Source: Bacteroidota bacterium
GTDB taxonomy: Bacteria > Bacteroidota > Bacteroidia > Bacteroidales > VadinHA17
Reading direction: 5' to 3'
Assembly (NCBI GenBank): GCA_030596025.1
Contig: JAUVKW010000011.1
Span: 1 to 35,338, forward strand
DNA: 35,338 nucleotides
Shown: positions 986 through 19,911 of the stretch, piece by piece
Numbering within the stretch: the first letter of the stretch is position 1
Layout: every line of letters begins with the position of its first letter
The notes under the pieces: model-generated
Seen by the model: the letters and a program-made list of their open reading frames with translations, nothing else
Told to the model about the DNA's origin: nothing
Database searches by the model: none
Translations under genes and position numbers: made by a program

Positions 986-1492
986 TCAAGTAAAAATGAT
1001 TTGAGTATTCTCACCACCAGCCAGTTCATAAAATGCGCCTATGGTGATAATGTCAATTACATGATCACATAAATCTTTTTTCTCCAGCTTGAACATATCA
1101 GCAGCAAGTTTACATGCGTAGATTTCACCTCCTCCTGCAGTGATCATGTCAAGAAATTCATCAACCGGCGGCATATCAAGTGCCTCCATTTGTTTTTTCA
1201 TCATTGCTGAAACACCTGCTTCGATACCTGGCAGGGTGCCCAGTAATGTTGGAAACGGAAGCCCTCCCGGCATTCTCATTGCAGGATTGCCAACAGTACT
1301 GGTGTGAAGTTTGTTCATTTGCTTCTTTGTAATTGCATCCAATCCGAAAAAGGTGAAAAATACTTTTGCCTCTATGCCTTCCATTACGGCACCATTTGCC
1401 ATAACCAGCGTGGCATAAACATCTTCAATAGATCCTTTTGCACAAATAATACAAACCTTCTTCAATGGATGTTCTTCTTTTTTTGTACTCAT
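986..1492 (-). CDS. DsrE/DsrF/DrsH-like family protein (DsrE2 type)
   Basis: KLHTSTVGNPAMRMPGGLPFPTLLGTLPG and GGGEIYACKLAADMF (conserved Cys) resemble DsrE2-type proteins. The ATG at 1492 (MSTKKEEH...) is preferred over the ORF-track start at 1525. Confidence 0.85.
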   Translation of the reverse strand: MSTKKEEHPLKKVCIICAKGSIEDVYATLVMANGAVMEGIEAKVFFTFFGLDAITKKQMNKLHTSTVGNPAMRMPGGLPFPTLLGTLPGIEAGVSAMMKKQMEALDMPPVDEFLDMITAGGGEIYACKLAADMFKLEKKDLCDHVIDIITIGAFYELAGGENTQIIFT

Positions 1493-1515
1493 AATATGTA
1501 ATTTAATGAATGGGT

Positions 1516-1827
1516 TTATACACAACTTGATGGTTTATCAATCCCTGCAATCCTTGAGGATTTTTTGAGCGGACCGCCTGGAAAAAGTTCATAAAGACCT
1601 TTGATATCAACAATGCCTGATTTCCCAACTTTTCGGATGGTCAAAGGACTTCCTTTTGCAGTTTCTTCCCTGAGAAACTGCAAAACTTCATAATGTTTAT
1701 CGGTAAGTTCAATTTCTTCCTCTTTGGCAAGTTCAGCTGCCACCTCTTTTGTCCATTGAGCAGGATCGGTTAGATAACCTTCATCGTTCACGTCAATTGC
1801 AACCCCTGCATAATTTTTTGTAGCCAT
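1516..1827 (-). CDS. tusE: TusE/DsrC family sulfur-relay protein with a single C-terminal Cys
   Basis: 103 aa; C-terminus FPGGPLKKSSRIAGIDKPSSCV matches the DsrC/TusE tail (KPxGCV-like) with a penultimate Cys. Confidence 0.88.
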   Translation of the reverse strand: MATKNYAGVAIDVNDEGYLTDPAQWTKEVAAELAKEEEIELTDKHYEVLQFLREETAKGSPLTIRKVGKSGIVDIKGLYELFPGGPLKKSSRIAGIDKPSSCV

Positions 1828-1864
1828 AGTAATTGATTTAAAATGTTATTAATTATTTTTTCTG

Positions 1865-2530
1865 TTAAATTTCCGTTTTCTCAGCAGGGCTTAAATTTTT
1901 CATAAATGTCAGGATAAACCCAATCCCTCTTTTCATCTCAGGAGTATTCAATTCTTTCATCACTTTCCAGATTGAATATTCCGGAACATTTGTCGGGTCA
2001 AGATTTTTATAAATATTCAAAGCATTGTTCATAGCCTTCATCATGTCGGGTTGGGTAAGACCTTTGAGAGTGTCCATTATTGTAACGATATTGTCGGCAA
2101 GCATTCTTACATCTTCTACCGAGTAGTGTGTAACAATATTGTCAAGAATCTTAAATGCTTCGCTGAAAAACTGAAAGTATCCTTTTTGCTCATACTCATG
2201 GAATTTCCCAATTACATCATATCCAACTTCTTTGGCAATCGGGCCCATATCTTTCATCAGATCCACCATGTTTTCAAACATATTCAGGATCATTGAAAAA
2301 TTATTTGCATTTTTAAGGAGCTTAAAAAAGATGATTTGCAAGGCTTCGCCATCGAGTTCAACACCTTGGTGATCAAGAGTCTCGACCGTGCTTTCAAATG
2401 CATCCTTCCCAATGATTGACATATCACTGATCAGATCTTCAATCATTTCACTTTTTAACCTTTGCTGATTGACATTTTCCAGCAAAAGATCCAGTTTTTG
2501 ATTTATCTCACTCAATTGATCATTTTCCAT
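1865..2530 (-). CDS. DUF1641 domain-containing protein
   Basis: Helical protein (LNPYKNLDPTNVPEYSIWKVMKELNTPEMKRGIGFILTFMKNL-like C-terminus) resembling DUF1641. Start set at MENDQLSEINQ (2530), 2 bp after the SQR stop. Confidence 0.75.
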   Translation of the reverse strand: MENDQLSEINQKLDLLLENVNQQRLKSEMIEDLISDMSIIGKDAFESTVETLDHQGVELDGEALQIIFFKLLKNANNFSMILNMFENMVDLMKDMGPIAKEVGYDVIGKFHEYEQKGYFQFFSEAFKILDNIVTHYSVEDVRMLADNIVTIMDTLKGLTQPDMMKAMNNALNIYKNLDPTNVPEYSIWKVMKELNTPEMKRGIGFILTFMKNLSPAEKTEI

Positions 2531-2532
2531 AA

Positions 2533-3762
2533 CTAAAGTTTTTTCCCGGCCATAGACATATTTGGCCCAATTGGAAGTTCTTTTCCCTTTAATAGAATAT
2601 GCCAGTAGATCCACCTGAAAATAACTTTTCCATAATGGTTAAATTTGGTGTTTTGAAGAAGACCAAAAGGACCCACCCCGGGTAGAGGAAAAGTTCCGGG
2701 TAAAGGTTCCGTGTCATAGTTAAAATCTATGATAGAGCCTTTCCCAAACCCGGTTTCAATATAGCAATTAGCATGCCCGTCGAATTTTGCATACAATGGC
2801 TTTCCATCTATAGAACTTAGAAGGTTTTCCAGCAATACCTCAGCTGCAAAGTGAACAACAGATCCTGCTTTTGAAGTTGGGATATTGGATGCATCACCAA
2901 GGACAAATATATTTTCATATTTCTCTGAACGCAAGGTCTGTTTGTCTGTTGGAACAAAATTAAGATCATCTCCCATACCACTTCTTTCAATTAAATCATT
3001 TCCCATATTTACCGGCACTATTGTGAGAAGGTCAAATGGGATTTCCTGGCCATCATAAGAGATGATCTTTTTTTCTTTGTTATCAACTCTCTCCAGATAA
3101 AATTCGGGAATTACCTTGATGTTCTTTTCTTCTAGTAAGCCACTCAGCATTTTTGTGGCATGAGGTTTGGTAAATGCTCCGGGAAGTGGAGTAACATAAG
3201 TAATGTTAATTTTATCCCTGATTCCGGCTTCATGAAAATAGGCATCTGCCAGAAAAACAAATTCGAGAGGAGCTACGGGGCATTTAAATGGAATCTCAGC
3301 AATATTCATTACCAGGCGCCCACCTTCCCATGTTTTAATGAATTCACGTAATGCGACTGCTCCTTCAATGGTATAAAAATCGAAAATGCGTTTATACCAC
3401 AGATCTTCTTTTAATCCTGGAGTTTCTTCAGGCCGGGTTTGAGTACCGGTTGCCAGGATCATAAAATCATAATTCAGAATTTTTCCATTCCCAAGCTTTA
3501 CCTGATTTTTATCGCCTTCTATTAAGTCAATTTCTGAAAAAATCACATTTACTCCCGGAGGGAAAAAATCACTTTTGGGTTTTATTACATCATTTTTATT
3601 ATAGATACCAAAGGGAATGAATAAAAAACCGGGTTGGTAATAATGAGTTTTATATTGGTCAACAAGAGTAATATCCCACTCGCTTCTATCCAGGATGGAT
3701 CTTAGTTTGTTTGCCATGATTGTACCTCCGGTACCACCACCAAGAATTAATATTTTTTTCAT
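2533..3762 (-). CDS. sqr: FAD-dependent sulfide:quinone oxidoreductase
   Basis: N-terminal Rossmann motif ILILGGGTGGTIMANKL; IPFKCPVAPLE and GHANCYIETGFGKG contain the two conserved redox Cys; ILATGTQ and VLGDASNIPTSKAG FAD motifs. Confidence 0.9.
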   Translation of the reverse strand: MKKILILGGGTGGTIMANKLRSILDRSEWDITLVDQYKTHYYQPGFLFIPFGIYNKNDVIKPKSDFFPPGVNVIFSEIDLIEGDKNQVKLGNGKILNYDFMILATGTQTRPEETPGLKEDLWYKRIFDFYTIEGAVALREFIKTWEGGRLVMNIAEIPFKCPVAPLEFVFLADAYFHEAGIRDKINITYVTPLPGAFTKPHATKMLSGLLEEKNIKVIPEFYLERVDNKEKKIISYDGQEIPFDLLTIVPVNMGNDLIERSGMGDDLNFVPTDKQTLRSEKYENIFVLGDASNIPTSKAGSVVHFAAEVLLENLLSSIDGKPLYAKFDGHANCYIETGFGKGSIIDFNYDTEPLPGTFPLPGVGPFGLLQNTKFNHYGKVIFRWIYWHILLKGKELPIGPNMSMAGKKL

Positions 3763-3873
3763 ATTTTTATTGAATCAAAAGATTAGATTTTCAGGGATAC
3801 ACAAAAAAACTTCTGCTGTGAATTGGGCATTACAAAATTACCCATAGATTTGTAGCTGATAGATTTGGGTATT

Positions 3874-3887
3874 ATGATATATATCAA
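3874..3887. promoter_or_regulatory. FNR-box-like operator (ATGAT-ATAT-ATCAA)
   Basis: 9 of 10 match to TTGAT-N4-ATCAA, in the divergent intergenic region between sqr (-) and a crp/fnr gene (+). Confidence 0.55.
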
Positions 3888-3936
3888 GATTGTTTTATAA
3901 CATATATAGATGTCTTGATAAGTTACTTAAGTTCTC

Positions 3937-4617
3937 ATGAATAATAACTGTGAGGTTTGTTTTTACAGATCGTTTTTGTTTGATAATCTCGAGAAAAAGG
4001 AGTTTGCTCTTCTTAGTCTGGCCCGAAAAGAGATTGATTACAAAAAAGGCGAAATCATTGTGAGAGAGGGAGAAAAGATTTCTGATTTTCTTTATTTGAA
4101 AGAGGGTTTATTGAAAGTTTACAGAACTGTGGGTCCCCGAAAGGAGCAAATTGTTGGAGTGGCAAAACCCATGGATTTTGTAGGCTTATTGAGTGTTTTT
4201 TCAAAATCAAATTATCAGTACTCCATATCTACTCTTGAAGATTCATCAGTTTGTGCTATTCCCCTGGATCTGGTAAAACAAATGGTGCATTCCAATGGAG
4301 ATTTTGCCAATACTCTTCTTAAAAAGATGAGCGAGATGAATGACCAGATCCTCAATGCCAGACTGGATATTAATTTAAAGAATTTGAGGGGAAGAACGGC
4401 TTATATTCTATTAATGCTTTCAAAGGAAGTATATAAAAGTGAGAAGTTTGATCTTCCTGTATCAAGGAAAGAAATAGGAGAGCTTATAGATATGAGAACT
4501 GAAAATGTGATTAGAATATTGTCAGAATTCAGGAATGACGGGATAATTAAAATAGAAGGGAAGGGGATTGAGATTGTGGACATGGAGAGGCTGGAGCAGA
4601 TTTCAGAATTTGGGTAA
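3937..4617 (+). CDS. Crp/Fnr family transcriptional regulator (paralogue 1)
   Basis: cNMP-binding fold (KKGEIIVREGEKISDFLYLKEGLLKVY), HTH (VSRKEIGELIDMRTENVIRILSEFRNDGII), N-terminal CEVC and SSVCAIPL resembling E. coli FNR C122 context. Confidence 0.92.
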   Translation: MNNNCEVCFYRSFLFDNLEKKEFALLSLARKEIDYKKGEIIVREGEKISDFLYLKEGLLKVYRTVGPRKEQIVGVAKPMDFVGLLSVFSKSNYQYSISTLEDSSVCAIPLDLVKQMVHSNGDFANTLLKKMSEMNDQILNARLDINLKNLRGRTAYILLMLSKEVYKSEKFDLPVSRKEIGELIDMRTENVIRILSEFRNDGIIKIEGKGIEIVDMERLEQISEFG

Positions 4618-4723
4618 AGTAAACCATAAGAGCATACGCATCAACTTATGAAAAACCACCTCCCTCCTGACGATTAATGTCAGGATTATAAACCTGGAGA
4701 ACTTATACTCTTCACTTGGCGAA

Positions 4724-4969
4724 TCATTCTTTTTCTGAACGGAAGTTGCTGCAATTGCATTTCATACATAAGACTGACCATGTAATTCCTAGCACTAAAC
4801 CGGCTCCAAGAGCGATGTAGAATACAATCTTAGGAAAGCCAAGACAACATGATAAAAAACCAATTAATATCAATGCCAGAACACCGACCATACCGAGAAC
4901 CATGCAAAAAAAACCTGCGTTAATCAGAAAATTTTTCCACCCTGGAATTTTATTGTTTTGTGTGTTCAT
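4724..4969 (-). CDS. Small hypothetical membrane protein (two predicted TM helices, Cys-rich)
   Basis: 81 aa ORF with two hydrophobic segments and FLSCCLG / VLCMKCNC motifs; lies alone between two crp genes. Confidence 0.55.
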   Translation of the reverse strand: MNTQNNKIPGWKNFLINAGFFCMVLGMVGVLALILIGFLSCCLGFPKIVFYIALGAGLVLGITWSVLCMKCNCSNFRSEKE

Positions 4970-5032
4970 TTTCCCACGATGTTAGTGTCTATGTCAAAGG
5001 TATGAAGATGTAAACTTAATGCCTTGTCATAT

Positions 5033-5130
5033 AGTGTGAGAATTGTCAAAATAAAGCGTGATATTTGTTTCAGATGTGTAGTGTGATGTTTGTTTCGTGC
5101 TCATAAATTATATTCGTATCTTATGAGCAC
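5033..5130. promoter_or_regulatory. Repeat-rich control region upstream of crp paralogue 2
   Basis: Three AGYGTGA-type direct repeats starting at 5033, 5055 and 5080 (last two extend to AGYGTGATRTTTGTTTC), then a perfect 10-bp inverted repeat GTGCTCATAA-N14-TTATGAGCAC (5097-5106/5121-5130). Confidence 0.55.
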
Positions 5131-5150
5131 AATTAAAAATTTAGAATTCG

Positions 5151-5849
5151 ATGATTCAGGTAAATAAGGATGGCTCAAAATGCCATGAATGCAAAAATAA
5201 ATCAACAGCGGCACTGGTGCTGGATGGGGACGAGCTTGAAATTCTTGAACAGGGTTGTCTGGATGTTCATTTGCAGGGTGGGGAAAAAATCTTTACAGAG
5301 GGATTGCCTCACTCTCATGTGGTATATCTAAAAGAAGGATTTGCAAAGATCCATATGCTTGGACCAAATGGACGTGATCAGATTTTAAAAATTTCGCGAC
5401 CAAACTCCTATTTGGGAATTCAAACAATTCTGGGAGGGAAAATAAATCACTTTTCTGCAACTGCACTGGGGGATATCAGGGCCTGTTATATAAATGTTCA
5501 TGTGTTTAAAGAATTGATAAATAAAAGTGGACCCTTTGCCACAAAAATTTTGAATTCTGTATGCTCTGAAGAATTGAGCTATTACAGGAGATTTGTGGGC
5601 CAGCAACAAAAACAAATTAATGGACGCCTGGCCGATGCAATTCTCTATTTTGCCGATGAGATTTTTGTTAGTAAAAACTTTGAATTACCCTTTTCGCACA
5701 ACGATTTATCTGGCTTGATCGGAACTACCAGGGAGAGTGTAACCCGGGGGTTGAAGGACTTTAAAGACGGGAATATCCTGGAGGTGAAAAGGAGAAATTT
5801 CCGGATACTGAATTATAGTCTTTTGAAAAAAATTAGCGAAAGAGGGTAA
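5151..5849 (+). CDS. Crp/Fnr family transcriptional regulator (paralogue 2)
   Basis: cNMP-binding fold (GGEKIFTEGLPHSHVVYLKEGFAKI), HTH (FSHNDLSGLIGTTRESVTRGLKDFKDGNIL), N-terminal CHEC and IRACYINVHVF. Confidence 0.92.
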   Translation: MIQVNKDGSKCHECKNKSTAALVLDGDELEILEQGCLDVHLQGGEKIFTEGLPHSHVVYLKEGFAKIHMLGPNGRDQILKISRPNSYLGIQTILGGKINHFSATALGDIRACYINVHVFKELINKSGPFATKILNSVCSEELSYYRRFVGQQQKQINGRLADAILYFADEIFVSKNFELPFSHNDLSGLIGTTRESVTRGLKDFKDGNILEVKRRNFRILNYSLLKKISERG

Positions 5850-5926
5850 AAGTGTCTGGTCCGGATATATTATACAGATTAGACAAAAGGACCAGGCAAC
5901 AAAAATGGGGGCATCTTCTGATATTT

Positions 5927-6022
5927 ATGTCAAAAGTCAGAGGCCAAAAGTATTATGTCAAATGTTGAGACCTCTTTATATTTACATGATACATTTGACA
6001 TTTGCCTTCTGACATTTGACAT
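5927..6022. repeat. Imperfect long inverted repeat (REP/MITE-like hairpin) between convergent crp genes
   Basis: Left arm ATGTCAAAAGTCAGAGGCCAAAAGTATTATGTCAAATG vs reverse complement of right arm ATGTCAAATGTCAGAAGGCAAATGTCAAATG; ~27-nt central loop. Confidence 0.7.
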
Positions 6023-6077
6023 TATTGTTGCCATTCATTTCTCATTTTATCAGGCTCAAATCAAATCTTATCTTACC

Positions 6078-6755
6078 TTACTCCATCTTTTTAAGGGTCT
6101 CAATATCTATAAGTTCAAAACTCTTGCCGTTTACTATCAGTAATTTATTAGCCTTCATGTATTTCAAAACCCTGGAAAGACTTTCCGGAGACATATTGGT
6201 GATTTCTGCCATGTCTTTCCTGGCAAGGGATGTAGTGAACTTGCTGGATTTGTATATATGTTTCGAAAGACATAATAAAAGATCAGATAATCTTCCATGA
6301 ACCTGTTTTTGTCCCAGGCTTGCTATTTGTTGGTAGCTTCTTATTATATCATCAGTGACATATTTCAGCATTCCTGCCGCAAAGCCTGCATTTCTTTCAG
6401 TAAGCTCTCTAAATGCATTTATATCCCATAAGCAGGCAAGGGTATCTTCACTGGCCACTGCAGAAAATGGAAGTTTCTGTGGCTTAAACAAAACCTGAAG
6501 TCCCAGGAAATATCCACCTGTTTCAATAGACAAAACAAGGGGCCCCCTGTTTCCTTCCGAAATAATCTTGATTAGTCCACTTCTAAGGTAGATTACATGG
6601 GAGGCAGAAGTACCTTGCTTACAAAGATTTTCTCCTTTCCTGAACTTAATTTCAACCCTGTTCCGGTTGATAAAAGCCAGCTCTTCTGGATTCAAAAACC
6701 TGAAGGGCGTAGTTATGCAAGTGCAATTCTTACAGGTATGAAGTATTTCAGACAT
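6078..6755 (-). CDS. Crp/Fnr family transcriptional regulator (paralogue 3)
   Basis: cNMP-binding fold (RKGENLCKQGTSASHVIYLRSGLIKI), HTH (LARKDMAEITNMSPESLSRVLKYMKANKLL), N-terminal CKNCTC and TLACLWDINAF. Confidence 0.92.
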   Translation of the reverse strand: MSEILHTCKNCTCITTPFRFLNPEELAFINRNRVEIKFRKGENLCKQGTSASHVIYLRSGLIKIISEGNRGPLVLSIETGGYFLGLQVLFKPQKLPFSAVASEDTLACLWDINAFRELTERNAGFAAGMLKYVTDDIIRSYQQIASLGQKQVHGRLSDLLLCLSKHIYKSSKFTTSLARKDMAEITNMSPESLSRVLKYMKANKLLIVNGKSFELIDIETLKKME

Positions 6756-6795
6756 TTTGTGAATCAGTTGTGAATCAGAGCAAAATTAGAAAAAA

Positions 6796-6846
6796 TTGAT
6801 TTCAAATCAAATCATTTTATGATATAGGGCAATTATAAAATGATTT
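6796..6846. promoter_or_regulatory. Two adjoining inverted repeats in a divergent promoter region
   Basis: TTGATTT-C-AAATCAA (6796-6810) overlaps a perfect 12-bp inverted repeat AAATCATTTTAT-N14-ATAAAATGATTT (6809-6820/6835-6846). Confidence 0.6.
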
Positions 6847-7021: not shown

Positions 7022-7996
7022 ATGAAAAAGTTTCTAAGATTTTCGCTTTTTATTTTACTTGTTCCTGCATTGCTATTTAGTAGCTGTAAGAAAGACACAG
7101 AAACCCCAGAGCGGACTACCGATCCGGAATTTCAAGCATTAACAGCATACATGGCTGCTAATAGTATGGATTTGAGTGACGTTCTTGCCTCACCATGGTA
7201 CCTTACGGCCGCAAGTATCAAAGATAATCTTAACGATTATTTTATCATCGATCTTCGTGGTACTTATGATGCAGGTCATATTCCTGGTGCAGTAAGTGCT
7301 ACCCTCACAAGCCTTCTGGATGTTGCAGACGATGCTAATGGAAAGACAATTATAGTTGCCTGTTTTTCCGGCCAGAGTGCAGGCCATGCGGTGACTGCTT
7401 TGCGTTTAAGTGGTTATTCAAATGCCGCTAGCTTACTGTTTGGAATGTCTAGCTGGCACTCAACATTAGATTCATGGACCGCGGCTTGTGATACCAAAAC
7501 ACCTCATGCAAGCTGGATTGACCCGGCAGGATCGATTGTTGCCAACAAAGAGTTTGATGATCCTGATCTTCCTGCCTATTCCAGTACAGACGCTGAATTT
7601 CTTGCACAACGTGTAGATGCTATGCTTGCGGCAGGATTTAAAGGAGATTTAAGTGCTGATATTCTTGCTGCACCTGGTAGTTTTTTTATCAATAACTATT
7701 GGGCTGCAACAGATGTTGAAACCTATGGTAATATTATTGGAGCCTATCGTATTCAGCCATTGACTATTGCAGGAGAGGAATTTAAGCATATTGATCCTTC
7801 AAAAACCGTAGCCACATATTGCTGGACCGGTCAAACTTCTTCTGTGATTACAGCTTATCTGAATGTTATTGGATACACAGCTACGAGCTTGAAAAATGGA
7901 GCAAACAGCATGATTTATGATAACCTGACCGCTCACAAATGGTCTGCTGCTACAGGCTGTCCTGAAGATTTGCCTCTTGAAGCAACAACAAAATAA
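7022..7996 (+). CDS. Tandem-rhodanese lipoprotein
   Basis: Lipobox LLFSS-C-KKDTETPE; rhodanese domain 1 (IIDLRGTYDAGHIPGAV...IIVACFSGQSAGHAV) and domain 2 (TVATYCWTGQTSSVITAYL) each keep a loop Cys. Confidence 0.85.
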   Translation: MKKFLRFSLFILLVPALLFSSCKKDTETPERTTDPEFQALTAYMAANSMDLSDVLASPWYLTAASIKDNLNDYFIIDLRGTYDAGHIPGAVSATLTSLLDVADDANGKTIIVACFSGQSAGHAVTALRLSGYSNAASLLFGMSSWHSTLDSWTAACDTKTPHASWIDPAGSIVANKEFDDPDLPAYSSTDAEFLAQRVDAMLAAGFKGDLSADILAAPGSFFINNYWAATDVETYGNIIGAYRIQPLTIAGEEFKHIDPSKTVATYCWTGQTSSVITAYLNVIGYTATSLKNGANSMIYDNLTAHKWSAATGCPEDLPLEATTK

Positions 7997-8002
7997 ATGT
8001 TG

Positions 8003-9122: not shown

Positions 9123-9989
9123 ATGAAAACAAAAATAAGATTATTTAGTCTGCTTTTAGCTTTGCTGGTATTGGCCGGTAACGTATTTGCAGGTCCAGAG
9201 CTTATTTCAGCCAAAGAGCTGAAAGGCAAAATGAAGGATAAAAATGTTATCATTGTATCCACAAGAACATTTTCAGATTATCAGCAGGTTCACCTTCCAG
9301 GTGCTGTGAATGTTTGGCACATCGACTTATACACTGATCCGACAGCGAATGGCTACATAAAATCTCCTGCCGAACTGGCCAAGATATTTGGTGGCAAGGG
9401 GATTAGCGAAACAAAAACCATTGTATTATATGATGCAGGTTCCGGAAAAAATTCAGGACGGCTTTATTGGATACTGAAATACCTGGGAGCCAAAGATGTT
9501 CGTATTCTGGATGGCCAGATGAAAGGATGGAGAGCTCAAAGGGGTGCGGTAACAAAAGCTCCAGCTAAAGTAGAAGCAGTTACGTTTACACCCAGTGTTC
9601 AAAAAGCAATTTTTGTAAGTACAGCTCAAGTGAGTGCTGCAAAAGGTAAATCCGGGACAGTAATCGTAGATGTTCGTTCTGCGGAAGAGTTTAATGGAAC
9701 TGATGAAACTGATATTCGGAAAGGCCATATACCAGGGGCAGTGAATCTGGAATTCAAAAATGTATTAACAGATGCGGCTACCTTTAAAAGTCCGGAAGAG
9801 CTAAAAAAGATCTTCACAGCACAAGGAATCACTGCAGATAAAGAGATTCTTCTTTATTGCAGAACCAGTGTTAGGGCAGGAATTGTTTATTTTGCCTTAA
9901 CCGACATGCTTGGTTATAAGAATGTTAAAGTATATGACAAGGCTTTTATCGGTTGGCAGTCAGCTTCTGCCAACCAGGTGGTTAAATAA
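9123..9989 (+). CDS. Periplasmic tandem-domain sulfurtransferase (SseA/thiosulfate sulfurtransferase-like)
   Basis: Signal peptide; two rhodanese domains; N-terminal domain loop IVLYDAGSGKNS (no Cys), C-terminal domain active loop ILLYCRTSVRAG (Cys). Confidence 0.88.
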   Translation: MKTKIRLFSLLLALLVLAGNVFAGPELISAKELKGKMKDKNVIIVSTRTFSDYQQVHLPGAVNVWHIDLYTDPTANGYIKSPAELAKIFGGKGISETKTIVLYDAGSGKNSGRLYWILKYLGAKDVRILDGQMKGWRAQRGAVTKAPAKVEAVTFTPSVQKAIFVSTAQVSAAKGKSGTVIVDVRSAEEFNGTDETDIRKGHIPGAVNLEFKNVLTDAATFKSPEELKKIFTAQGITADKEILLYCRTSVRAGIVYFALTDMLGYKNVKVYDKAFIGWQSASANQVVK

Positions 9990-10065: not shown

Positions 10066-12819
10066 TTACTCCCATTCAGGCACCTTACATTCAGGACTTA
10101 AATGGTTTAAAAGCCCCTGAAAATCATCAAGACTTTGCATCATGATCTCTGAATTTTCATCATGGCAGTTGAGGCAGCTTCCAACAGTAAGTATGCTTTT
10201 TTGTTCCTCAGGGCTAAAAGGCCTGAAATTATCCCTGGTAGACAGATCCCCCTTTCCTTCTATTAAAAAACCAATCCATGCATCTTCTGGCAAACGATCA
10301 TATTTATTTAATTGATATCTGGGTATAAAGCTCCATTTTCGGGTATTTAGATCAAAATTCAATTTTCCTTCACCATATCCCAGAGCAACCGGATCATTAT
10401 GACATGATTTGCAGCTTCTTCCTTCTGCCTGGATAGTGTGAGCTTCAGCGGGAGCGAATAAACGGAGAAAACGATATGCTTCCGGATCTGAATAATGGTT
10501 ATAGCTACTTTTGTCAAGTGTCATAATCATCCCCGGGACAGCAGTTTTAATTTTCCTTTCAGAATCTGTTTTTCCACGAGAAGGATACTCTACTCCCAGG
10601 CTGGGAGGAATAGCCAGATATTTCCCGGCATATTCAACCCAGGACCCCCTGGTAAACTTATTTGCATAGATATCATATCCTGGTGTATGCGGCTCATAAT
10701 CTGTATGGCATCCCAGGCAGCGTGGAGCCCAGGAGGTATGGCATGCACTACAAGTGAGGTCGTTATGGGCATTTCCCCGTGTGCAAACATCTGCAGGAGC
10801 AAGAACAGGATGAATTTTACCGGAAATCTTTCCGGTTAGTTTTATGGAATCATATTTATTGATAAAAGTATTTACAATTGTTTTTCCAGTTTTTATTGTT
10901 GTTAAATACCGGTGAATACCTTCCGTGGCAGGACGGAGTTCAAGAATTTTTCTGTTTTCTGAGTCAAATTTGTTGGGGCTGAGAGTTTGAGCAGGCTCTG
11001 TGAGATGACAGTCTTCACAGGCTACCTGCACCTGATCTTCCTTGTGTGCGTATATTTTACCATCCCCCATTAATTCGTTGGAATTATGGCAATCAATACA
11101 TGCAAGACCTTTTCTGTGGTGAATATCGTCTTCAACAAATGTGAAAACCCTATGATCTTCAAGAATCCGATAAGCTGGTGTGTTAAGACTATCATGTTCA
11201 TCCAGTAGGGTTTCATGCCAACCTTCATAGTTTGTGGAAATCCTGCCCGATCTGCTATGACAGCCAAAACAATGATCATCTGACACATCAATTGACAGAG
11301 CCGGATGGCTGGTAAGTTTATAATCCTTTTTACCCGATGAATGATACTCTCTATGTGCCTGAGAAGCACTATTTGAGTAGTTTAAATGGCAGGCATTGCA
11401 TCCTCCGCCCCGGGATAGCTGAGTGACAGGACCGATTTCGATTTTTGAATTCCCCAGGTGACAGGAGGCGCAAAGATCCCGAAGATGATTATCGGCTGCT
11501 GTTTGTTTTAAATCGTGAACATGACTGATCTCAGACAGGCTGTTGGTTTCTCCGAAGACATAACGGTCAACCGTGATCATTCCACTCAGTGTTGACATAA
11601 GGGAGGATTTTACTCTTTGTGGAATATCCGGATGGCAATTTGTAGTACCACAACTCCTGGCTGCATCGAGATTATTCCCCGGAATCAGGATCATATTTTT
11701 ATGAGCCTGCTTTTTGTTGAGAGAAAAAGAGTTTCCTCCATGACAGGAAACACAACCAATTGCTTCCGGATTATGAGCAGGCGAAAAGCCTTGTATTCCT
11801 GAATGGCAGATTAAACAAGCTTCCTCCCTTCCTAATATAACAGGGATTTCGCTCAAATTTAGGCTATCAAAATCAGAATACAAATCCATAAAAACAGGAT
11901 TGAAAGGGGTTTGTATCTGAATGCTATACAGGTCATTCCATGGCCAGATCCATTTCCAGTCTTCTCCTCTGAAAAAATTCCCGATCAATGTTAATATAAG
12001 ATAAAAGTAAAAGGAATATAGAAGAGATTTTCGCAGTATAAATCCCGGCCTGGTTTTTAGAGAAGGCAAAAAATAAATCAGCACCAAAATACCCAAAATC
12101 AACAGAAGAGAAACTCCCGGATGACTAAGCCAATGTAGAATTTCTTGTAATCCAAGAAAATACCATGGCCCTTTCATAATGGGGTCGAGATTATTATGAA
12201 GGGGTGCCTGGAAAACAATGGAAAGAAGAGAAATAAGGATCAGTGATATAATGAAGGTTTTCAGTTTCCCCCAAATGGTATGGGCATGTTCAAGAATTAT
12301 GACAGCAATAAAAATACTTGTTGTGGCAATGTGGTGTACATAAATTATCTGGAAGTCATTTTCAGGGCCAAGGACACTGAAAGATATAATATCTCCGAAA
12401 ACTGGGATAGAGGAAAGAAGGGTTTCCAGTATCCTGCGTGCCTGGAGACTGTCAGCATCAGCTTTAAGGATAAATCCTGAGAGCATAACCCAAAATACAA
12501 AAAGCAGGGAAATTACCAGCCTGAACCAAATTCCGGGTTTCGGTTTAATACTTTTTGAATTGCCAAGGTAATCCCAAACATGAAGAATGATAAATACCAG
12601 AAAAAGCTGGGCACTCCAGTAATGCAAATTCCTGAAAAAGCTGGCCCAGGGATTTGCGATGAGTAGTTTTCCTATAGAAGAATATGGATCATGAATATCA
12701 TAAGGAATCGCCAAAAATATTCCTGAAAAAACACAAACAAGAAAAAATCCTATCGACATCATCCCATAGGAGTCGAAAAAGATAATTTTCTTTATTTTTT
12801 TCCAGTTGTTGCTATTCAT
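10066..12819 (-). CDS. Cytochrome b6-like membrane protein fused to a multiheme (about 12 heme) c-type cytochrome domain
   Basis: N-terminal cyt b helices with His pairs H66-X13-H80 and H163-X14-H178, variant Qo motif GPWYFLGLQE, then 11 CXXCH (CLICH, CVSCH, CASCH, CNACH, CFGCH, CIDCH, CEDCH, CSACH, CLGCH, CKSCH, CLNCH) plus one CX4CH (CGTTNCH). Confidence 0.9.
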   Translation of the reverse strand: MNSNNWKKIKKIIFFDSYGMMSIGFFLVCVFSGIFLAIPYDIHDPYSSIGKLLIANPWASFFRNLHYWSAQLFLVFIILHVWDYLGNSKSIKPKPGIWFRLVISLLFVFWVMLSGFILKADADSLQARRILETLLSSIPVFGDIISFSVLGPENDFQIIYVHHIATTSIFIAVIILEHAHTIWGKLKTFIISLILISLLSIVFQAPLHNNLDPIMKGPWYFLGLQEILHWLSHPGVSLLLILGILVLIYFLPSLKTRPGFILRKSLLYSFYFYLILTLIGNFFRGEDWKWIWPWNDLYSIQIQTPFNPVFMDLYSDFDSLNLSEIPVILGREEACLICHSGIQGFSPAHNPEAIGCVSCHGGNSFSLNKKQAHKNMILIPGNNLDAARSCGTTNCHPDIPQRVKSSLMSTLSGMITVDRYVFGETNSLSEISHVHDLKQTAADNHLRDLCASCHLGNSKIEIGPVTQLSRGGGCNACHLNYSNSASQAHREYHSSGKKDYKLTSHPALSIDVSDDHCFGCHSRSGRISTNYEGWHETLLDEHDSLNTPAYRILEDHRVFTFVEDDIHHRKGLACIDCHNSNELMGDGKIYAHKEDQVQVACEDCHLTEPAQTLSPNKFDSENRKILELRPATEGIHRYLTTIKTGKTIVNTFINKYDSIKLTGKISGKIHPVLAPADVCTRGNAHNDLTCSACHTSWAPRCLGCHTDYEPHTPGYDIYANKFTRGSWVEYAGKYLAIPPSLGVEYPSRGKTDSERKIKTAVPGMIMTLDKSSYNHYSDPEAYRFLRLFAPAEAHTIQAEGRSCKSCHNDPVALGYGEGKLNFDLNTRKWSFIPRYQLNKYDRLPEDAWIGFLIEGKGDLSTRDNFRPFSPEEQKSILTVGSCLNCHDENSEIMMQSLDDFQGLLNHLSPECKVPEWE

Positions 12820-13690: not shown

Positions 13691-16000
13691 ATGAAAACAA
13701 GAAGAGATTTTATTAAAATCTCCGCAGTTGGAACCGGAGGCCTTGCAATAGGGCTTAGTTCTGTTAAGATTGCCCAGGCAAATGAGGGAGGAGGTTTGTT
13801 CAAGAAGCTTGAAAAAAAGCCGATTGTTCAAAATCGTTATCCTACTTATTGTGAGATTTGCTTCTGGAAATGTGCTGCATGGACTTATACAAATCAGAAA
13901 GGAGAACTGGTTAAGATTATTGGGAATGATGATGATCCGCATTGCAATGGACGGCTTTGTCCACGAGGAACCGGAGGAGTTGGAATGTATAATGATGAAG
14001 ATCGGTTAAAAACTCCTTTGATGAGGAAAGAGGTAAATGGCAAGCAGGTTTTTGAAGAGGTAAGCTGGGATGAAGCCCTAGATTATATTGCTGAAAAATT
14101 GCAGGGAATTGCAAAAGAACATGGTCCGGAATGTGTGGCTTTATTCTCTCATGGATCCGGCGGAAAATATTTTGGTCATTTATTAAAGGCATTCGGATCA
14201 GAGAATATTGCAGCTCCTTCTTATGCACAATGCCGGGGTCCCAGAGAAGTTGGTTTTATAGCTACGTTTGGTGCGGCTGTGGGATCTCCGGAGCCCACAG
14301 ATATCAGAGATACAGAATGTCTGGTTCTTATAGGTTCTCACCTGGGCGAGAATATGCATAATGGGCAGGTTCAGGAAATGTCGGCAGCAATTGATAAAGG
14401 GGCCACAATCATTACTGTAGATCCCAGGTATTCAACGGCTGCCAGCAAATCAAAACACTGGCTACCCATAAAGCCTGCTACCGATATGGCACTTTTATTG
14501 GCCTGGATAAATGTTATTATTGAGAACGAATGGTATAACAAGGAATATATAGAAAAGAATACCTACGGTTTTAAGCAGCTCAAACAGCATGTTAAGCAAA
14601 TGACACCTGAATGGGCATATGGGATTACGACCATTGAGCCCGATGTGATAAGGAAAACAGCTAAAGAAATGGCAAAAGCTTCTCCTGCAGTCATTGTTCA
14701 TCCCGGGCGTCATGTTACCTGGTATGGTGATGATACGCAGAGAACTCGCGCCATAGCCATATTGAATGCCCTTTTAGGCTCCTGGGGTAGCAGGGGTGGA
14801 TTTTTCCTTCCCGAGAGTATTCATCTTCCCAAGTATCCATCACCCAAGTATCCCAAGCCCACGAAATCATGGAGGGACGCATTTCCAGGTAAGTTTAAGT
14901 TAGCAGAATTGGCATTGGCTTCTGGAATTTGCGATGCTACTGTTCCAACCACTGAACGCGATTGCTCCTTTAAGGGATGGTTGGTATATGGAACAAATTT
15001 AATAGAAACCTTACCCAACCAGGAGCAGACCTATAAAGCAATTCAAAGCCTGGATCTTTTGGTGGCCATTGATACAATGCCCATGGAGATCACTGGTTAC
15101 GCCGATGTTATTTTACCGGAATGTACCTATTTAGAACGATACGATGACATCAGAACTTCAGGAACCAGGACACCATCCATTGCCTTACGAATGCCTGCTG
15201 CTGAGCCAAAATACGATTCCAAACCCGGATGGTGGATTGCTAAAGAGCTGGGAAAGAAACTAGGCTTAGAAGCTTACTTTAATTATGAAGATTACACAGA
15301 GGTTTTAGATTGGCAGTTAAAGCAGGTGGGTTCTTCGCTTGAGGAAATGAAAAAAATCGGGGTAAAAAAATTCAAACGTGAATATGGTGGTTTGTATTAT
15401 TATAAAGGAGAAAGTATAGAGTTCAATACAAATACAGGAAAAATTGAATTGTATTCTACTTCAATGCAGGATGAAGGGTATGATCCTCTTCCCAGCTATA
15501 CTCCACATCCGGAACCTCCAGGAGGCTATTACCGGTTAAATTATGGAAGGGCTCCAATGCATTCATTCAGCAGAACAACAAACAATCCATTGCTTTTCGA
15601 CCTGATGGAAGAAAATAACATATGGGTTAATCCTAAAATCGCTAATGAATGGGGTTTAAAGAACGGACAAGAAATTTGGTTAAAGAATCAAGATGGGATT
15701 GTTTCAAATTTTCCTGGCAAAGTCAGGGTTACTGAAAGAATTCGTTGGGATAGTGTTTTTGTAGTTCATGGTTTTGGACATTCAAACAAAAAATTAACGA
15801 GATCATATGGTAGAGGATTGAGTGATCAAAAGCTTATAACTAATGTCATGATTGACCCCATTATGGGAGGAACAGGAATGAGAGGGAACTTTGTGACCTT
15901 CCTGACGGAAGAGCCTACAGAACTTGAAAAAGCAAAAGGCAATCCTTACCTTGATGGAAAACAATCAATAATGAATGTTGGAAAGGAGGTTAAATCATGA
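13691..16000 (+). CDS. psrA: Molybdopterin oxidoreductase catalytic subunit, Psr/Phs (polysulfide/thiosulfate reductase)-type
   Basis: Tat signal MKTRRDFIKISAVGTGGLAIG; [4Fe-4S] motif YCEICFWKCAA...RLCPRG; CRGPREVG with Cys near the Mo site; MGGTGMRGNFV near the C-terminus. Start at 13691 (Tat signal) preferred over 13652. Confidence 0.88.
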   Translation: MKTRRDFIKISAVGTGGLAIGLSSVKIAQANEGGGLFKKLEKKPIVQNRYPTYCEICFWKCAAWTYTNQKGELVKIIGNDDDPHCNGRLCPRGTGGVGMYNDEDRLKTPLMRKEVNGKQVFEEVSWDEALDYIAEKLQGIAKEHGPECVALFSHGSGGKYFGHLLKAFGSENIAAPSYAQCRGPREVGFIATFGAAVGSPEPTDIRDTECLVLIGSHLGENMHNGQVQEMSAAIDKGATIITVDPRYSTAASKSKHWLPIKPATDMALLLAWINVIIENEWYNKEYIEKNTYGFKQLKQHVKQMTPEWAYGITTIEPDVIRKTAKEMAKASPAVIVHPGRHVTWYGDDTQRTRAIAILNALLGSWGSRGGFFLPESIHLPKYPSPKYPKPTKSWRDAFPGKFKLAELALASGICDATVPTTERDCSFKGWLVYGTNLIETLPNQEQTYKAIQSLDLLVAIDTMPMEITGYADVILPECTYLERYDDIRTSGTRTPSIALRMPAAEPKYDSKPGWWIAKELGKKLGLEAYFNYEDYTEVLDWQLKQVGSSLEEMKKIGVKKFKREYGGLYYYKGESIEFNTNTGKIELYSTSMQDEGYDPLPSYTPHPEPPGGYYRLNYGRAPMHSFSRTTNNPLLFDLMEENNIWVNPKIANEWGLKNGQEIWLKNQDGIVSNFPGKVRVTERIRWDSVFVVHGFGHSNKKLTRSYGRGLSDQKLITNVMIDPIMGGTGMRGNFVTFLTEEPTELEKAKGNPYLDGKQSIMNVGKEVKS

Positions 16001-16530
16001 GATATGCAATGGCAATAGATACAAAGAAGTGTGTGGGTTGCAGTGATTGTGTAGTTGCCTGTCAGGTCGAAAATAATGTACCTGTAGGTTACTGCAGGGA
16101 CTGGGTGACAGAAACCGTTGATGGTACTTACCCAAGCCTTGAAATTGAAATACGATCTGAAAGATGTAATCATTGTGATAATGCTCCTTGTGTAAGATGC
16201 TGTCCAACCGGAGCAAGTCATATTGTTGAGGGGGGAGTTGTGCTGGTTACACCCAACAAGTGTATTGGTTGTGGTGCTTGTATACAATCATGTCCCTATG
16301 ATGCCAGGTATTCACACCCTGATGGCCATGTTGATAAGTGCACTTTTTGTTTGCATAGGGTTAAAAAGGGACAGGATCCTGCATGTGTATCAGTATGCCC
16401 TACTAAATGTATGTATTTTGGTGATCTGGATAATCCAAATAGTGATGTTTCGAAAATGATTGCTAAAAGAAAATATAAAACTCTTGCTCCCGAAGCGGGG
16501 ACTAAACCACAAATTTTTTATTTGATCTAA
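15997..16530 (+). CDS. psrB: 4Fe-4S ferredoxin-type electron-transfer subunit (PsrB/PhsB-like)
   Basis: Four Cys clusters (CVGCSDCVVACQ, CNHCDNAPCVRCCP, CIGCGACIQSCP, CTFC...CVSVCPTKC); ATGA overlap with the upstream gene. Confidence 0.93.
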   Translation: MRYAMAIDTKKCVGCSDCVVACQVENNVPVGYCRDWVTETVDGTYPSLEIEIRSERCNHCDNAPCVRCCPTGASHIVEGGVVLVTPNKCIGCGACIQSCPYDARYSHPDGHVDKCTFCLHRVKKGQDPACVSVCPTKCMYFGDLDNPNSDVSKMIAKRKYKTLAPEAGTKPQIFYLI

Positions 16531-16550
16531 GACCTAATAAAAATCTGAAT

Positions 16551-17492: not shown

Positions 17493-17516
17493 AAATTAAT
17501 TAATACTAATATACAA

Positions 17517-18047
17517 ATGAAAAATCTGGAAGAAAGAAGCAAACAATACCTCAACCCTTACTTTGGAGGAGTGTTGCTGGGTTTGTTACTATTATTAACG
17601 GTGTATATTACAGGAAGAGGATTAGGGGCAACCGGAGCCATAAAGAGCTCAATAGTAACGGCAGTTGACCGGGTTGCACCCACATATGCTGAAAATCAGG
17701 CTTATTACAGCAAGTTTTTAAGCGATGATCATCATCCCATGAGTAACTGGTTGGTGTTTGAAACGATTGGGATTTTTGTGGGAGCTTTTCTATCTGGACT
17801 TATTGCAGGACGTGTGAAAAAATTCAGAATTGAACATTCTCCAAAAATTACACCTAAAACACGACTTATTTTTGCAACATTAGGAGGGATGTTATTTGGT
17901 ATTGGATCACAATTTGGAAGGGGTTGTACCAGTGGAGCAGCTCTAAGTGGCACAGCCACTATGGCAACAGCCGGTTTTTTGGCAATGATGCTTATTTTCG
18001 GATCGGGCTATTTATTTGCTTATTTTTTCCGAAAATTATGGATTTAG
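17517..18047 (+). CDS. YeeE/YedE family membrane protein, half 1 (PmpA/PmpB/TsuA-like)
   Basis: Membrane protein with SQFGRGCTSGAALSG motif of YeeE/YedE transporters. Confidence 0.85.
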   Translation: MKNLEERSKQYLNPYFGGVLLGLLLLLTVYITGRGLGATGAIKSSIVTAVDRVAPTYAENQAYYSKFLSDDHHPMSNWLVFETIGIFVGAFLSGLIAGRVKKFRIEHSPKITPKTRLIFATLGGMLFGIGSQFGRGCTSGAALSGTATMATAGFLAMMLIFGSGYLFAYFFRKLWI

Positions 18048-18077
18048 TGATCATTTTTTGAAATAGGTTTTAATAAA

Positions 18078-18683
18078 TTGAAATATAAAATTATGGGACC
18101 TCTAATTAGTCAAGGTTATATTAATCAGGAATGGAATTTTGTTATCGCCCTGCTTTTGGGTGTTGCATTTGGGTACATTCTTGAGGCAAGTGGCTTTTCA
18201 TCTTCAAGGAAACTAGCCGGTGTGTTTTATGGTTACGATTTTGTAGTTCTAAGAGTTTTTATGACAGCAGCAATGGTAGCAATGATTGGCTTAGTTTATT
18301 TTGATCACATGAATTGGATAGATATTTCTAAAATATTTATATTACCTACATTTTTAACTTCAGTCATTGTTGGAGGAGTTATTATGGGTTTGGGGTTTAT
18401 TATGGGTGGTTATTGCCCCGGAACCAGTTTTACCGGTGTGGCAATAGGGAAACTTGATGCAGTTTTTTTTACGGCCGGACTATACCTGGGTATCTTTATT
18501 TTTTCAACTGCCTTTCCGTTGATTGAGGGTATTTATTATGGTGGAGAACTCGGCCCGGTAACAGTTATGGAGACTTTTGGAATTTCACGAGAGCTATTTG
18601 CTTTTCTGTTTATTATGGCTACACTGATGGCATTCTTTGTCGTATCATTGGTACAGAAAAGAGTTAAGAAAATAGAAGTTTAA
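18078..18683 (+). CDS. YeeE/YedE family membrane protein, half 2
   Basis: GFIMGGYCPGTSFTGVAIGKLDAVFFTAGLYLGIF motif; ORF-track start is TTG, an in-frame ATG lies at 18093. Confidence 0.85.
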   Translation: MKYKIMGPLISQGYINQEWNFVIALLLGVAFGYILEASGFSSSRKLAGVFYGYDFVVLRVFMTAAMVAMIGLVYFDHMNWIDISKIFILPTFLTSVIVGGVIMGLGFIMGGYCPGTSFTGVAIGKLDAVFFTAGLYLGIFIFSTAFPLIEGIYYGGELGPVTVMETFGISRELFAFLFIMATLMAFFVVSLVQKRVKKIEV

Positions 18684-18695
18684 TACACACTACTA

Positions 18696-19328
18696 ATGAA
18701 TAAGACATATTATTTTTTAATTGCTTTAACATTTGCTTTGGGATTTGGCGCTTTGTTCCTGCCTGAGAAATCACACACCAAAGAAATCACACCTGAGCAA
18801 CTGTTTTATAAAATGAATAATCCATCCAGATTTGTCACTACTGACCAGGTAGCAAGATTAATTATTGAATCTGATCCCGCACTGCTCCTTGTAGATGCAC
18901 GATCACCTGATCAATATAGATTATTTTCTCTTCCAGGTGCTATGAATATTCCCATGAAGGAACTCGTAGATTCAAATGGAATAATTTGTTCTAAGTGGGT
19001 AGATTATTTAGATATAGAAGGATTGAATGTTATTTTCTTTTCAAACTCTGATGTAATTGCCGATCAGGTTTGGGTAATTTGTACCAGGCATGAACTAGAC
19101 AATCTGTATGTAATGAGGGGAGGCTTAAATACCTGGGCAGAAACAATTTTAAAGCCTCAAAAACCTTTTGAATCCTCTCCTATAGAAGAGTTTGCCTTAT
19201 ATGATTTTAGAAGAGGTGCATGTCAGTATTTTGGAGGAGGATCTATTAGCATTAAGTCAGATGTAGTTGCAGATCCGGTTCCGCGGATTCGTAGAAAGAA
19301 GAAGACCGTTGTAGCAGGAGGTTGTTAG
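18696..19328 (+). CDS. Membrane-anchored rhodanese-like protein lacking the loop Cys, with C-terminal GGC tail
   Basis: N-terminal hydrophobic anchor; LLVDARSPDQYRLFSLPGAMNIP...VIFFSNSDVIADQ (no Cys at the active loop); C-terminus RRKKKTVVAGGC. Confidence 0.82.
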   Translation: MNKTYYFLIALTFALGFGALFLPEKSHTKEITPEQLFYKMNNPSRFVTTDQVARLIIESDPALLLVDARSPDQYRLFSLPGAMNIPMKELVDSNGIICSKWVDYLDIEGLNVIFFSNSDVIADQVWVICTRHELDNLYVMRGGLNTWAETILKPQKPFESSPIEEFALYDFRRGACQYFGGGSISIKSDVVADPVPRIRRKKKTVVAGGC

Positions 19329-19353
19329 TTATAATTTTAATTTTTTAGAAATC

Positions 19354-19911
19354 ATGATTCATGCAAAGAATCCCAGGCGTTTAACACTTTCACTAATAGT
19401 TTTCGTATTAATTATAATTGTTGGCTTGATTACAATGAACAAGCCAGAGTTTAGTTATAAAAACAACTCGGCTCAAGTATTAAAAAGTATCCTAAATAAA
19501 GAGGGAGAATTAATACCCGAAAAAGCAATATTTTATGCGGAAGAGAACAATCCATCTTTTGTTTTTGTAGATATAAGGAACCCTTATGAATATATTAAAG
19601 GACATATTCCTAATGCCATAAACATACCTTTGACTGAACTTTTGTCTAAAGAAACTATGAAAACATTTGACAAGTATGTCAGAGACAAAACCACTATTGT
19701 GATATATGCAAATACTCAGACAGAGGCAAATGGCTCCTGGATGCTTTTAAAGCAGCTGGGATATTCTGATATAAAAGTATTAATTGGGGGTTTTGAGTAT
19801 TATTCTAAAGAACTTAAAGAGAATGAAAAAGTACCTGAGACCCCTGAATATTTTGTAGAAACTCCAAAGTATGATTTTGCTAAAATAGCAAAGGAAGCAT
19901 CTTCAAATTAA
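19354..19911 (+). CDS. Membrane-anchored rhodanese-like protein lacking the loop Cys
   Basis: N-terminal hydrophobic anchor; VFVDIRNPYEYIKGHIPNAINIP...IVIYANTQTEANG (no Cys at the active loop). Confidence 0.85.
   Translation: MIHAKNPRRLTLSLIVFVLIIIVGLITMNKPEFSYKNNSAQVLKSILNKEGELIPEKAIFYAEENNPSFVFVDIRNPYEYIKGHIPNAINIPLTELLSKETMKTFDKYVRDKTTIVIYANTQTEANGSWMLLKQLGYSDIKVLIGGFEYYSKELKENEKVPETPEYFVETPKYDFAKIAKEASSN

Follow-up and report, generated by a model that had tools for sequence, protein, structure and literature searches.

A Psr-YeeE-rhodanese operon of Bacteroidota and its candidate sulfur carriers, rhodanese-fold proteins with a C-terminal Gly-Gly-Cys arm

Gene content of the island

The window, the whole 35,338-nucleotide stretch of Bacteroidota contig JAUVKW010000011.1 analysed here, contains the following genes, identified at these coordinates by Pfam, NCBIfam and PDB searches (family cut-offs in parentheses where given):

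986..1495, minus strand: DsrE2-like sulfur carrier; PF13686, 90.6 bits; NF047629, 104 bits (cut-off 210)
1516..1827, minus: TusE/DsrC-family protein ending KPSSCV; TIGR03342, 77.8 bits (cut-off 53.5); DsrC structure alignment
1865..2530, minus: DUF1641 protein; PF07849, 33.7 bits
2533..3762, minus: type III sulfide:quinone oxidoreductase (SQR); NF049943, 648.8 bits (cut-off 525)
3937..4617, plus: Crp/FNR-family regulator, divergent from SQR
7022..7996, plus: lipoprotein with two rhodanese loops (CFSGQSA, CWTGQTS); PF00581, 60 bits
8076..9098, plus: outer-membrane porin, nearest curated family ExtI; PF07396, 62.9 bits; NF040900, 59.5 bits (cut-off 150)
9123..9989, plus: secreted tandem rhodanese, second domain CRTSVRA; PF00581, 131 bits; ExtH, 68.5 bits (cut-off 200)
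10066..12819, minus: CytbM, a cytochrome b/membrane/11 CxxCH fusion (ExtP-ExtQ-ExtM-like); NF040943, 245.6 bits (cut-off 800); NF040969, 57.8 bits
12820..13227, minus: Rieske protein (CTHLGC / CPCHG); PF00355, 49.9 bits
13652..16000, plus: PsrA, Tat-exported molybdoenzyme; PDB 2vpw_A, E=2e-195
15997..16530, plus: PsrB, 4Fe-4S subunit; PF13247
16551..17492, plus: PsrC, NrfD-type quinol subunit; PF03916, 148 bits
17517..18047, plus: YeeEa, C-terminal half of a YeeE/YedE channel (RGCTSG); PF04143 positions 173-308
18078..18683, plus: YeeEb, N-terminal half of a YeeE/YedE channel (GGYCPGTS); PF04143 positions 8-152
18696..19328, plus: RhdX1, with an N-terminal anchor helix, a rhodanese domain lacking the active-site Cys and a basic disordered tail ending GGC
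19354..19911, plus: RhdX2, of the same architecture, its tail lost in this genome

The family assignments are far above chance, as illustrated by the match of PsrA to Thermus thermophilus Psr and the SQR score relative to its cut-off. Every gene kind named in the first-pass annotation was found: DsrE2, TusE/DsrC-like, DUF1641, SQR, porin, rhodaneses, Rieske, cytochrome b-multiheme, PsrABC, split YeeE/YedE and two rhodanese-like proteins. Its assignment of the modules to sulfur and quinone chemistry is sound, and the Psr-YeeE-rhodanese portion is a truly conserved operon. The DUF1641 gene is likewise present, with its start most likely at 2530 rather than 2614 because the longer frame overlaps SQR. 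The SQR carries both redox cysteines of the type III enzyme (Cys161 and Cys333) and aligns with human SQR structures. The TusE/DsrC-family protein has one penultimate Cys, with Ser replacing the second of the two conserved C-terminal cysteines of DsrC, and is of TusE type.

The core operon and the displaced cysteine

The core operon, which is widespread in Bacteroidota, runs PsrA-PsrB-PsrC-YeeEa-YeeEb-RhdX1. The Met start of the conserved PsrA protein lies at 13691, and the column of its putative molybdenum-ligand cysteine (C181) is invariant across the alignment and aligns to 2vpw. This subunit, the B subunit and the NrfD-type subunit stand in the order of PsrABC/PhsABC; the PsrA score against NCBIfam PhsA is 473 bits, below the cut-off of 694. 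Both halves of YeeE/YedE are present on two genes, and their cysteines (YeeEa GCTSG, YeeEb CPGTS) are conserved among relatives. These features suggest a polysulfide/thiosulfate-type reductase operon, with polysulfide or thiosulfate as the putative substrate.

Conservation was assessed in 60 informative relatives from Bacteroidota and Neomarinimicrobiota, taken as loci whose sequence runs on for 5 kb or more beyond PsrA. The core is intact in 58 of these, with PsrC found in 60, YeeEa in 58, YeeEb in 58 and RhdX1 in 59. In a survey of 218 genomes of the order, PsrA occurs in 65 and is absent from 153; all 65 PsrA genomes encode the RhdX family, which is linked on the same contig in 60. One locus (L126) has PsrABC beside arm proteins with EEEGC tails and lipoprotein-type N-termini, in an operon without YeeE, and another (L110) has PsrA and PsrC with neither YeeE nor RhdX1 nearby. 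The Psr-YeeE-RhdX partnership is therefore not absolute.

RhdX1 and RhdX2 had been described as a Cys-less pair. This holds for the catalytic position: the active-site loop of RhdX1, where catalytic rhodaneses carry Cys, has it in only 2/80 sequences and Ser in 73/80. It does not hold for the whole proteins, since RhdX1 ends in GGC, as does RhdX2 in most relatives; the window's copy of RhdX2 has lost the tail. Complete RhdX1 C-termini have GC in 65/65 and GGC in 64/65, seven with an added S and three with an added G. A GC-type terminus occurs in only 4/1223 other complete open reading frames of the same loci, at least three of which are YeeEb-rhodanese fusions; a chance origin of the terminal cysteines was rejected. 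The Gly-Gly-Cys arm, the most informative feature of the locus, was absent from the earlier reading.

The RhdX1 tail is basic (K+R 26%, D+E 5%). Within genomes, the tails of RhdX1 and RhdX2 covary (p<5e-5), whereas their bodies do not (p=0.43); recent gene conversion is not favoured as the source of the matching tails, as identical residues often use different codons. The RhdX1 N-terminus is TM-like in 63/65 sequences and follows the positive-inside pattern in 59/65. The AlphaFold model places a TM helix at 3-20, an ordered fold at 33-181 whose nearest folds are rhodaneses, and a disordered, low-confidence tail at 182-210. Domain searches of RhdX1 return Rhodanese only, with no SoxY domain (PF13501). 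On these sequence features, RhdX1 and RhdX2 make up a displaced-cysteine family with predicted periplasmic-type anchoring. Searches of the open-licence literature turned up no paper describing a Cys-less rhodanese with such an arm.

A fusion-type frame of 389-433 aa occurs in up to 17 surveyed genomes, 16 of them without PsrA. The retrieved fusions are of the form YeeEb-TM-rhodanese, nearly all end in GGC, and their loci encode an octaheme tetrathionate-reductase-family cytochrome with a cytochrome b561.

The lone terminal Cys could instead serve in a disulfide, in anchoring or in sensing. RhdX1 and RhdX2 would then be structural or sensory proteins (for YeeE/Psr assembly, as a disulfide tether or as a redox sensor) rather than sulfur carriers. 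Loss of the active-site Cys and the absence of the tail from some proteins fit such a role, a lone Cys might join two proteins through a disulfide, and RhdX1 and RhdX2 share tails. However, the GGC(G/S) ending resembles the SoxY arm pattern, is confined in the data surveyed to sulfur-channel and sulfur-enzyme loci, and belongs to a domain that is elsewhere fused to half of a sulfur channel; a purely structural or sensory function is rather unlikely.

Proposed mechanism and direction of the pathway

The locus may bear on how sulfane sulfur passes from the periplasm to the cytoplasm in bacteria that lack Sox proteins. The explanation narrowly favoured here is that PsrABC is wired to the split YeeE/YedE channel and to GGC-armed RhdX1 and RhdX2 acting as periplasmic sulfur carriers. 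It builds on several observations: the operon is conserved, the active-site Cys is lost, RhdX1 ends in GGC, the RhdX1 and RhdX2 tails covary, the domain is fused to YeeEb in some genomes, and the sequences predict a disordered tail and periplasmic-type anchoring. That a persulfide is transferred, between which partners and in which direction, we infer. In this reading the sulfur-binding Cys has left the rhodanese active site and sits at the end of a flexible, basic C-terminal arm, where it may carry a persulfide; the arm would swing between a donor (polysulfide, PsrA or a secreted rhodanese) and the periplasmic opening of YeeEa/YeeEb; and TusE, DsrE2, TusA or DsrE would take up the imported sulfane sulfur. 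PsrABC would exchange electrons with the menaquinone pool. The arm would resemble in its role that proposed for the GGCGG arm of SoxY towards SoxT, on an unrelated fold; the transfer of sulfur from SoxY to SoxT has itself only been proposed (PMC11582611).

More broadly, RhdX may represent a kind of sulfur carrier not described before: a rhodanese-fold protein without its catalytic cysteine whose GGC swinging arm, convergent with SoxY, loads split YeeE/YedE, and which plugs into varied periplasmic redox enzymes (PsrABC; the octaheme cytochrome with b561 in fusion loci). We regard this generalization as evenly balanced. If the arm is the handover device, it would tie polysulfide respiration to the import of sulfur in Bacteroidota and Neomarinimicrobiota that are widespread in marine and sediment habitats. 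Its role could then be probed cleanly by changing one residue, and it would serve to mark the genes of sulfur-channel systems that at present are labelled only 'rhodanese-like'.

Sulfur genes outside the window bear on direction. The first-pass annotation saw neither TusA nor sHdr, which is true of the window; the genome, however, encodes two TusA genes and a DsrE-TusA-MvhD-HdrA-HdrA-QmoC cluster on other contigs, leaving its suggestion that TusE/DsrE2 replace TusA unsupported. TusA-YeeE (C35) and DsrE-TusA (C127) lie on separate contigs, so yedE, tusA and dsrE do not stand together as in the YTD cluster of sulfur-disproportionating bacteria. AprBA-QmoABC is on a further contig, and cbb3 oxidase genes are present. 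Genome-wide absences rest on family searches of the genome. These found no Dsr-type sulfite reductase (PF01077, DsrAB), with positive controls detected; no SoxY match, with a control that was silent too; and only a sub-threshold match for SoxB. The sole match to an HdrB-type CCG protein lies in an electron-transfer-flavoprotein/acyl-CoA dehydrogenase-like locus and was judged from sequence not to be Hdr.

Because the genome holds Psr together with SQR, AprBA-QmoABC and cbb3 oxidase, sequence does not fix the direction (reduction, import or oxidation). PsrABC might act as an oxidase, passing electrons from sulfide or sulfane sulfur to menaquinone and feeding cbb3, with AprBA-QmoABC finishing to sulfate. 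These oxidative genes are all encoded, and reversible use of PsrABC has been suggested for Marinimicrobia (PMC5688066). Reduction is nevertheless the precedent in the family, and neither DsrAB nor an sHdr-type HdrB was recognised in the genome for making sulfite, which makes the oxidative direction doubtful.

Accessory modules and known systems

The island consists of three separable modules rather than one obligate pathway. The porin/rhodanese/cytochrome b module is an optional accessory. CytbM is an undecaheme protein most similar to Geobacter Ext proteins, with 11 CxxCH motifs in 16/16 members; it occurs in 16/218 genomes of the order, and all 16 encode PsrA (p=9e-10). As CytbM is always found with PsrA, a sulfur setting is indicated. 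The module might instead act on chalcogen oxyanions (selenite/tellurite) or in extracellular electron transfer, in the manner of Geobacter extHIJKLMNOPQS, in which deletion of extI impairs selenite and tellurite reduction (PMC5877670). Its rhodanese, porin, Rieske, cytochrome b and multiheme genes are of the kinds described there; in NCBIfam the porin and the cytochrome match ExtI, ExtM and ExtP best, and the tandem rhodanese matches ExtH. Every match is nonetheless below its curated cut-off (ExtI 59.5/150, ExtH 68.5/200, ExtM 245.6/800 bits), none of ExtJ, KL, N or S was seen, and this assignment, set against the constant company of PsrA, is improbable.

The SQR-DUF1641-TusE-DsrE2 module is also an optional accessory: SQR occurs in 18/65 PsrA genomes and 27/153 without PsrA, which is not a significant association (p=0.10). 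Of the complete sulfur-respiration route first proposed, the conserved operon stands, whereas the SQR and Ext-like modules are optional. In favour of a single sulfide/polysulfide/thiosulfate conversion route spanning all modules, every family is tied to sulfur or quinone, the SQR module adjoins the core in 4/16 CytbM genomes (G000, G216, G067, G172) and ~8/80 wider loci, and a sulfur disproportionation model for Desulfurivibrio dismutans joins Psr, secreted rhodaneses, porin, YeeE/YedE and TusA (PMC12142623). Such a route is nonetheless unlikely: CytbM is present in only 16/65 PsrA genomes, SQR does not significantly track PsrA, and TusA, the Hdr/Qmo-like cluster and AprBA-QmoABC lie outside the window, which shows that the route would extend beyond the island.

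The Desulfurivibrio model uses Dsr, and the armed Cys-less rhodanese is not in the part of its description available (PMC12142623). The Geobacter ext cluster shares the grouping of rhodanese, porin, Rieske, cytochrome b and multiheme genes; here the cytochrome b, membrane and multiheme parts are fused, several ext genes are missing and the module is Psr-linked. T. thermophilus PsrABC (PDB 2vpw), of the Psr/Phs family, shares the three-subunit Tat-exported molybdenum enzyme, the NrfD-type membrane subunit and the position of the molybdenum-ligand Cys, to which the present operon adds a YeeE/YedE channel in two pieces and rhodaneses with a GGC arm. TsuA/SoxT (YeeE/YedE) transporters likewise consist of a pair of homologous halves, both of which bear a conserved Cys motif; here the halves are on separate genes in swapped order, and some genomes fuse one half to an armed rhodanese.

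Sud of Wolinella, a polysulfide-sulfide transferase, and Aquifex SbdP are rhodanese-fold sulfur suppliers to sulfur reductase that retain the catalytic rhodanese Cys; in RhdX that Cys is lost and the Cys sits on the tail. With SoxY(Z), RhdX shares a predicted periplasmic location, a link to a YeeE-type transporter and a Cys, here the putative carrier, at the end of the C-terminal arm. The SoxY arm reads GGCGG, whereas RhdX has GGC, GGCG or GGCS, the full GGCGG being absent from RhdX1; no SoxZ was seen here and no Sox oxidation genes were recognised, and RhdX is a single membrane-anchored polypeptide with a rhodanese fold. What is new here is a predicted membrane-anchored rhodanese-fold pair in which the active-site Cys is lost and a Cys is displaced to the tip of the tail, in this genome in RhdX1 alone and in relatives usually in both proteins.

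Composition and conservation of the locus

Taken in aggregate, the locus is a conserved core with two optional accessories: operon order is kept in most loci, and the accessories are patchy. The window is contig C123 of a 3.1-Mb draft genome (about 90% complete), and the gene list of the first-pass annotation is borne out by family and structure searches. By profile search, the SQR clearly belongs to type III (648.8 bits; cut-off 525). The TusE/DsrC-like protein retains the penultimate Cys only, PsrA matches T. thermophilus Psr (E=2e-195) with the Mo-ligand Cys position retained, and the two YeeE/YedE genes are halves of a single channel in swapped order. Features of the window are:

251-844, close to the SQR module: a MobA-like guanylyltransferase of molybdenum cofactor synthesis, scoring under the curated cut-offs (about ten relatives also have MobA-like genes in the vicinity of the cytochrome fusion)
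3937-6755, between the SQR and porin modules: three separate Crp/FNR-family regulators
10066-12819: cytochrome b-multiheme fusion (CytbM), with 11 CxxCH motifs in 16/16 members
18696-19328 and 19354-19911: rhodanese-like RhdX1 and RhdX2
22684-28487, downstream: putative gliding/type IX secretion genes (GldN/M/L/K-like, PorP-like), recognised by sequence inspection

Across 218 genomes of the order, CytbM occurs in 16, PsrA in 65, SQR in 45 and the RhdX family in 87, including all 65 PsrA genomes. With p-values that count related genomes as independent, PsrA is present in 16/16 CytbM genomes (p=9e-10), and PsrA and SQR show no significant co-occurrence (SQR in 18/65 PsrA genomes versus 27/153 others, p=0.10). 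The nine-gene set (CytbM, Rieske, PsrABC, YeeEa, YeeEb, RhdX1, RhdX2) surrounds the fusion, in two arrangements, in 14/15 relatives, a count that takes in loci with contig-edge gaps or a PsrB masked by an overlapping frame. The SQR module adjoins this neighbourhood in 4/16 genomes, the source genome counted, and the rhodanese-porin-rhodanese set does so in about three; in two further genomes a contig end truncates it. In a named-genome scan, the order PsrA-B-C-YeeEa-YeeEb-RhdX1 holds in most of the best 80 of at least 546 PsrA loci; these 80 include cultured Mariniphaga, Sunxiuqinia, Carboxylicivirga, Marinifilum, Labilibaculum, Fulvivirga and Marinoscillum, as well as Neomarinimicrobiota and MAGs labelled Chlorobiota.

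Rhodanese-like proteins with C-terminal arms

Neither of the two rhodanese-like proteins at the end of the operon has the catalytic Cys. Among the best 80 of at least 546 loci, the RhdX1 active-site position is Ser in 73/80 and Cys in 2/80; complete RhdX1 proteins end in GC (65/65), nearly always GGC (64/65), with one extra residue, S or G, after the terminal Cys in 10 of the 65. RhdX2 ends in GGC in 21/24, the window's own copy being among those that lost this ending. Only 4/1223 other complete ORFs of these best 80 of at least 546 loci end likewise, and in at least three of these four YeeEb is joined through an anchor helix to a rhodanese domain.

The tails are basic (K+R 26%, D+E 5%). RhdX1 and RhdX2 tails are far more alike within than between genomes (p<5e-5, treating related genomes as independent); the rhodanese bodies show no such likeness (p=0.43). 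Identical tail residues are often encoded by different codons, a pattern that favours selection acting on the peptide over recent copying as the source of the match.

In the AlphaFold model of RhdX1, residues 3-20 form an anchor helix, residues 33-181 a confidently modelled rhodanese fold whose structural neighbours are rhodaneses, and residues 182-210 a tail of low confidence. In the best 80 of at least 546 loci, the RhdX1 anchor is TM-like in 63/65 and carries positive-inside charge in 59/65. An operon variant without YeeE (L126:13772-14425 and neighbours) encodes RhdX1 and RhdX2 with lipoprotein-type N-termini and EEEGC ends in place of basic-GGC. Given these anchors and N-termini, the most likely location of the rhodanese domains is the periplasmic side, where PsrA, which carries a Tat motif, also lies.

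The order survey of 218 genomes also holds 17 with an RhdX-family match inside a frame of fusion size (389-433 aa), 16 of them without PsrA. Essentially all of the 15 regions fetched encode a YeeEb-rhodanese fusion, ending in GGC or GGCS in all but one (L148, per our ORF call). Many of these loci share a cassette: a ~528-aa protein, a cytochrome b561-like protein, a double-rhodanese lipoprotein-GGC, YeeEa, YeeEb-rhodanese-GGC and RhdX2-GGC. In 3/3 loci checked the ~528-aa protein has 8 CxxCH motifs, and the L136 copy belongs to the tetrathionate-reductase family of octaheme cytochromes (TIGR04315, 548 bits). Several same-order genomes (L133-L142) carry the cassette with up to three GGC-ended rhodanese proteins, mostly without this PsrA.

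Sulfur genes elsewhere in the genome

The first-pass annotation saw no TusA in the window; TusA is encoded on C35 and C127, which, like C202, are contigs linked by binning in an incomplete MAG (GC of stretches read 0.355, 0.376 and 0.373, respectively; window 0.377). C35 (L005:4301-6820) carries a Crp regulator, TusA, a full-length YeeE/YedE, a Cys-containing rhodanese lipoprotein and a second one that lacks the active-site Cys and ends in KAPEGC. C127 (L004:3888-9626) carries a DsrE-TusA-MvhD-HdrA-HdrA-QmoC-like cluster interrupted by the contig end; in a relative (L135), such a cluster adjoins a YeeE-arm cassette. Across the order, this HdrA co-occurs with SQR (p=0.004, ignoring kinship) and not with PsrA. 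On C202 (L159:7979-15701) lie AprB-AprA and QmoA-QmoB-QmoC-like genes (AprA 906 bits, cut-off 642; QmoC 401, cut-off 300), possibly a sulfite-to-APS oxidation module in a Bacteroidota. The genome encodes a cbb3 oxidase, and family search of the roughly 90% complete draft found no sulfite reductase.

Proposed mechanism and known systems

In the mechanism proposed here, the flexible cationic arm would attract anionic polysulfide or thiosulfate, and its terminal Cys would bear a persulfide, presented at the periplasmic mouth of the split YeeE channel. Polysulfide, secreted rhodaneses or PsrA may donate the sulfur; cytoplasmic acceptors could be the window's TusE/DsrE2, the genome's TusA (C35, C127) and DsrE. 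Because Psr, HdrA/Qmo-like, AprBA-QmoABC and cbb3 genes coexist, and HdrA tracks SQR rather than PsrA, several flux directions are compatible: Psr acting as a reductase, sulfur import that serves biosynthesis or oxidation, and disproportionation.

We found no description of such an armed Cys-less rhodanese in the open-licence literature. Sulfur transfer from the SoxY Cys along SoxT cysteines has been called conceivable (PMC11582611). Geobacter Ext proteins are the best curated matches of CytbM and also match the porin and tandem rhodanese, all below curated cut-offs.
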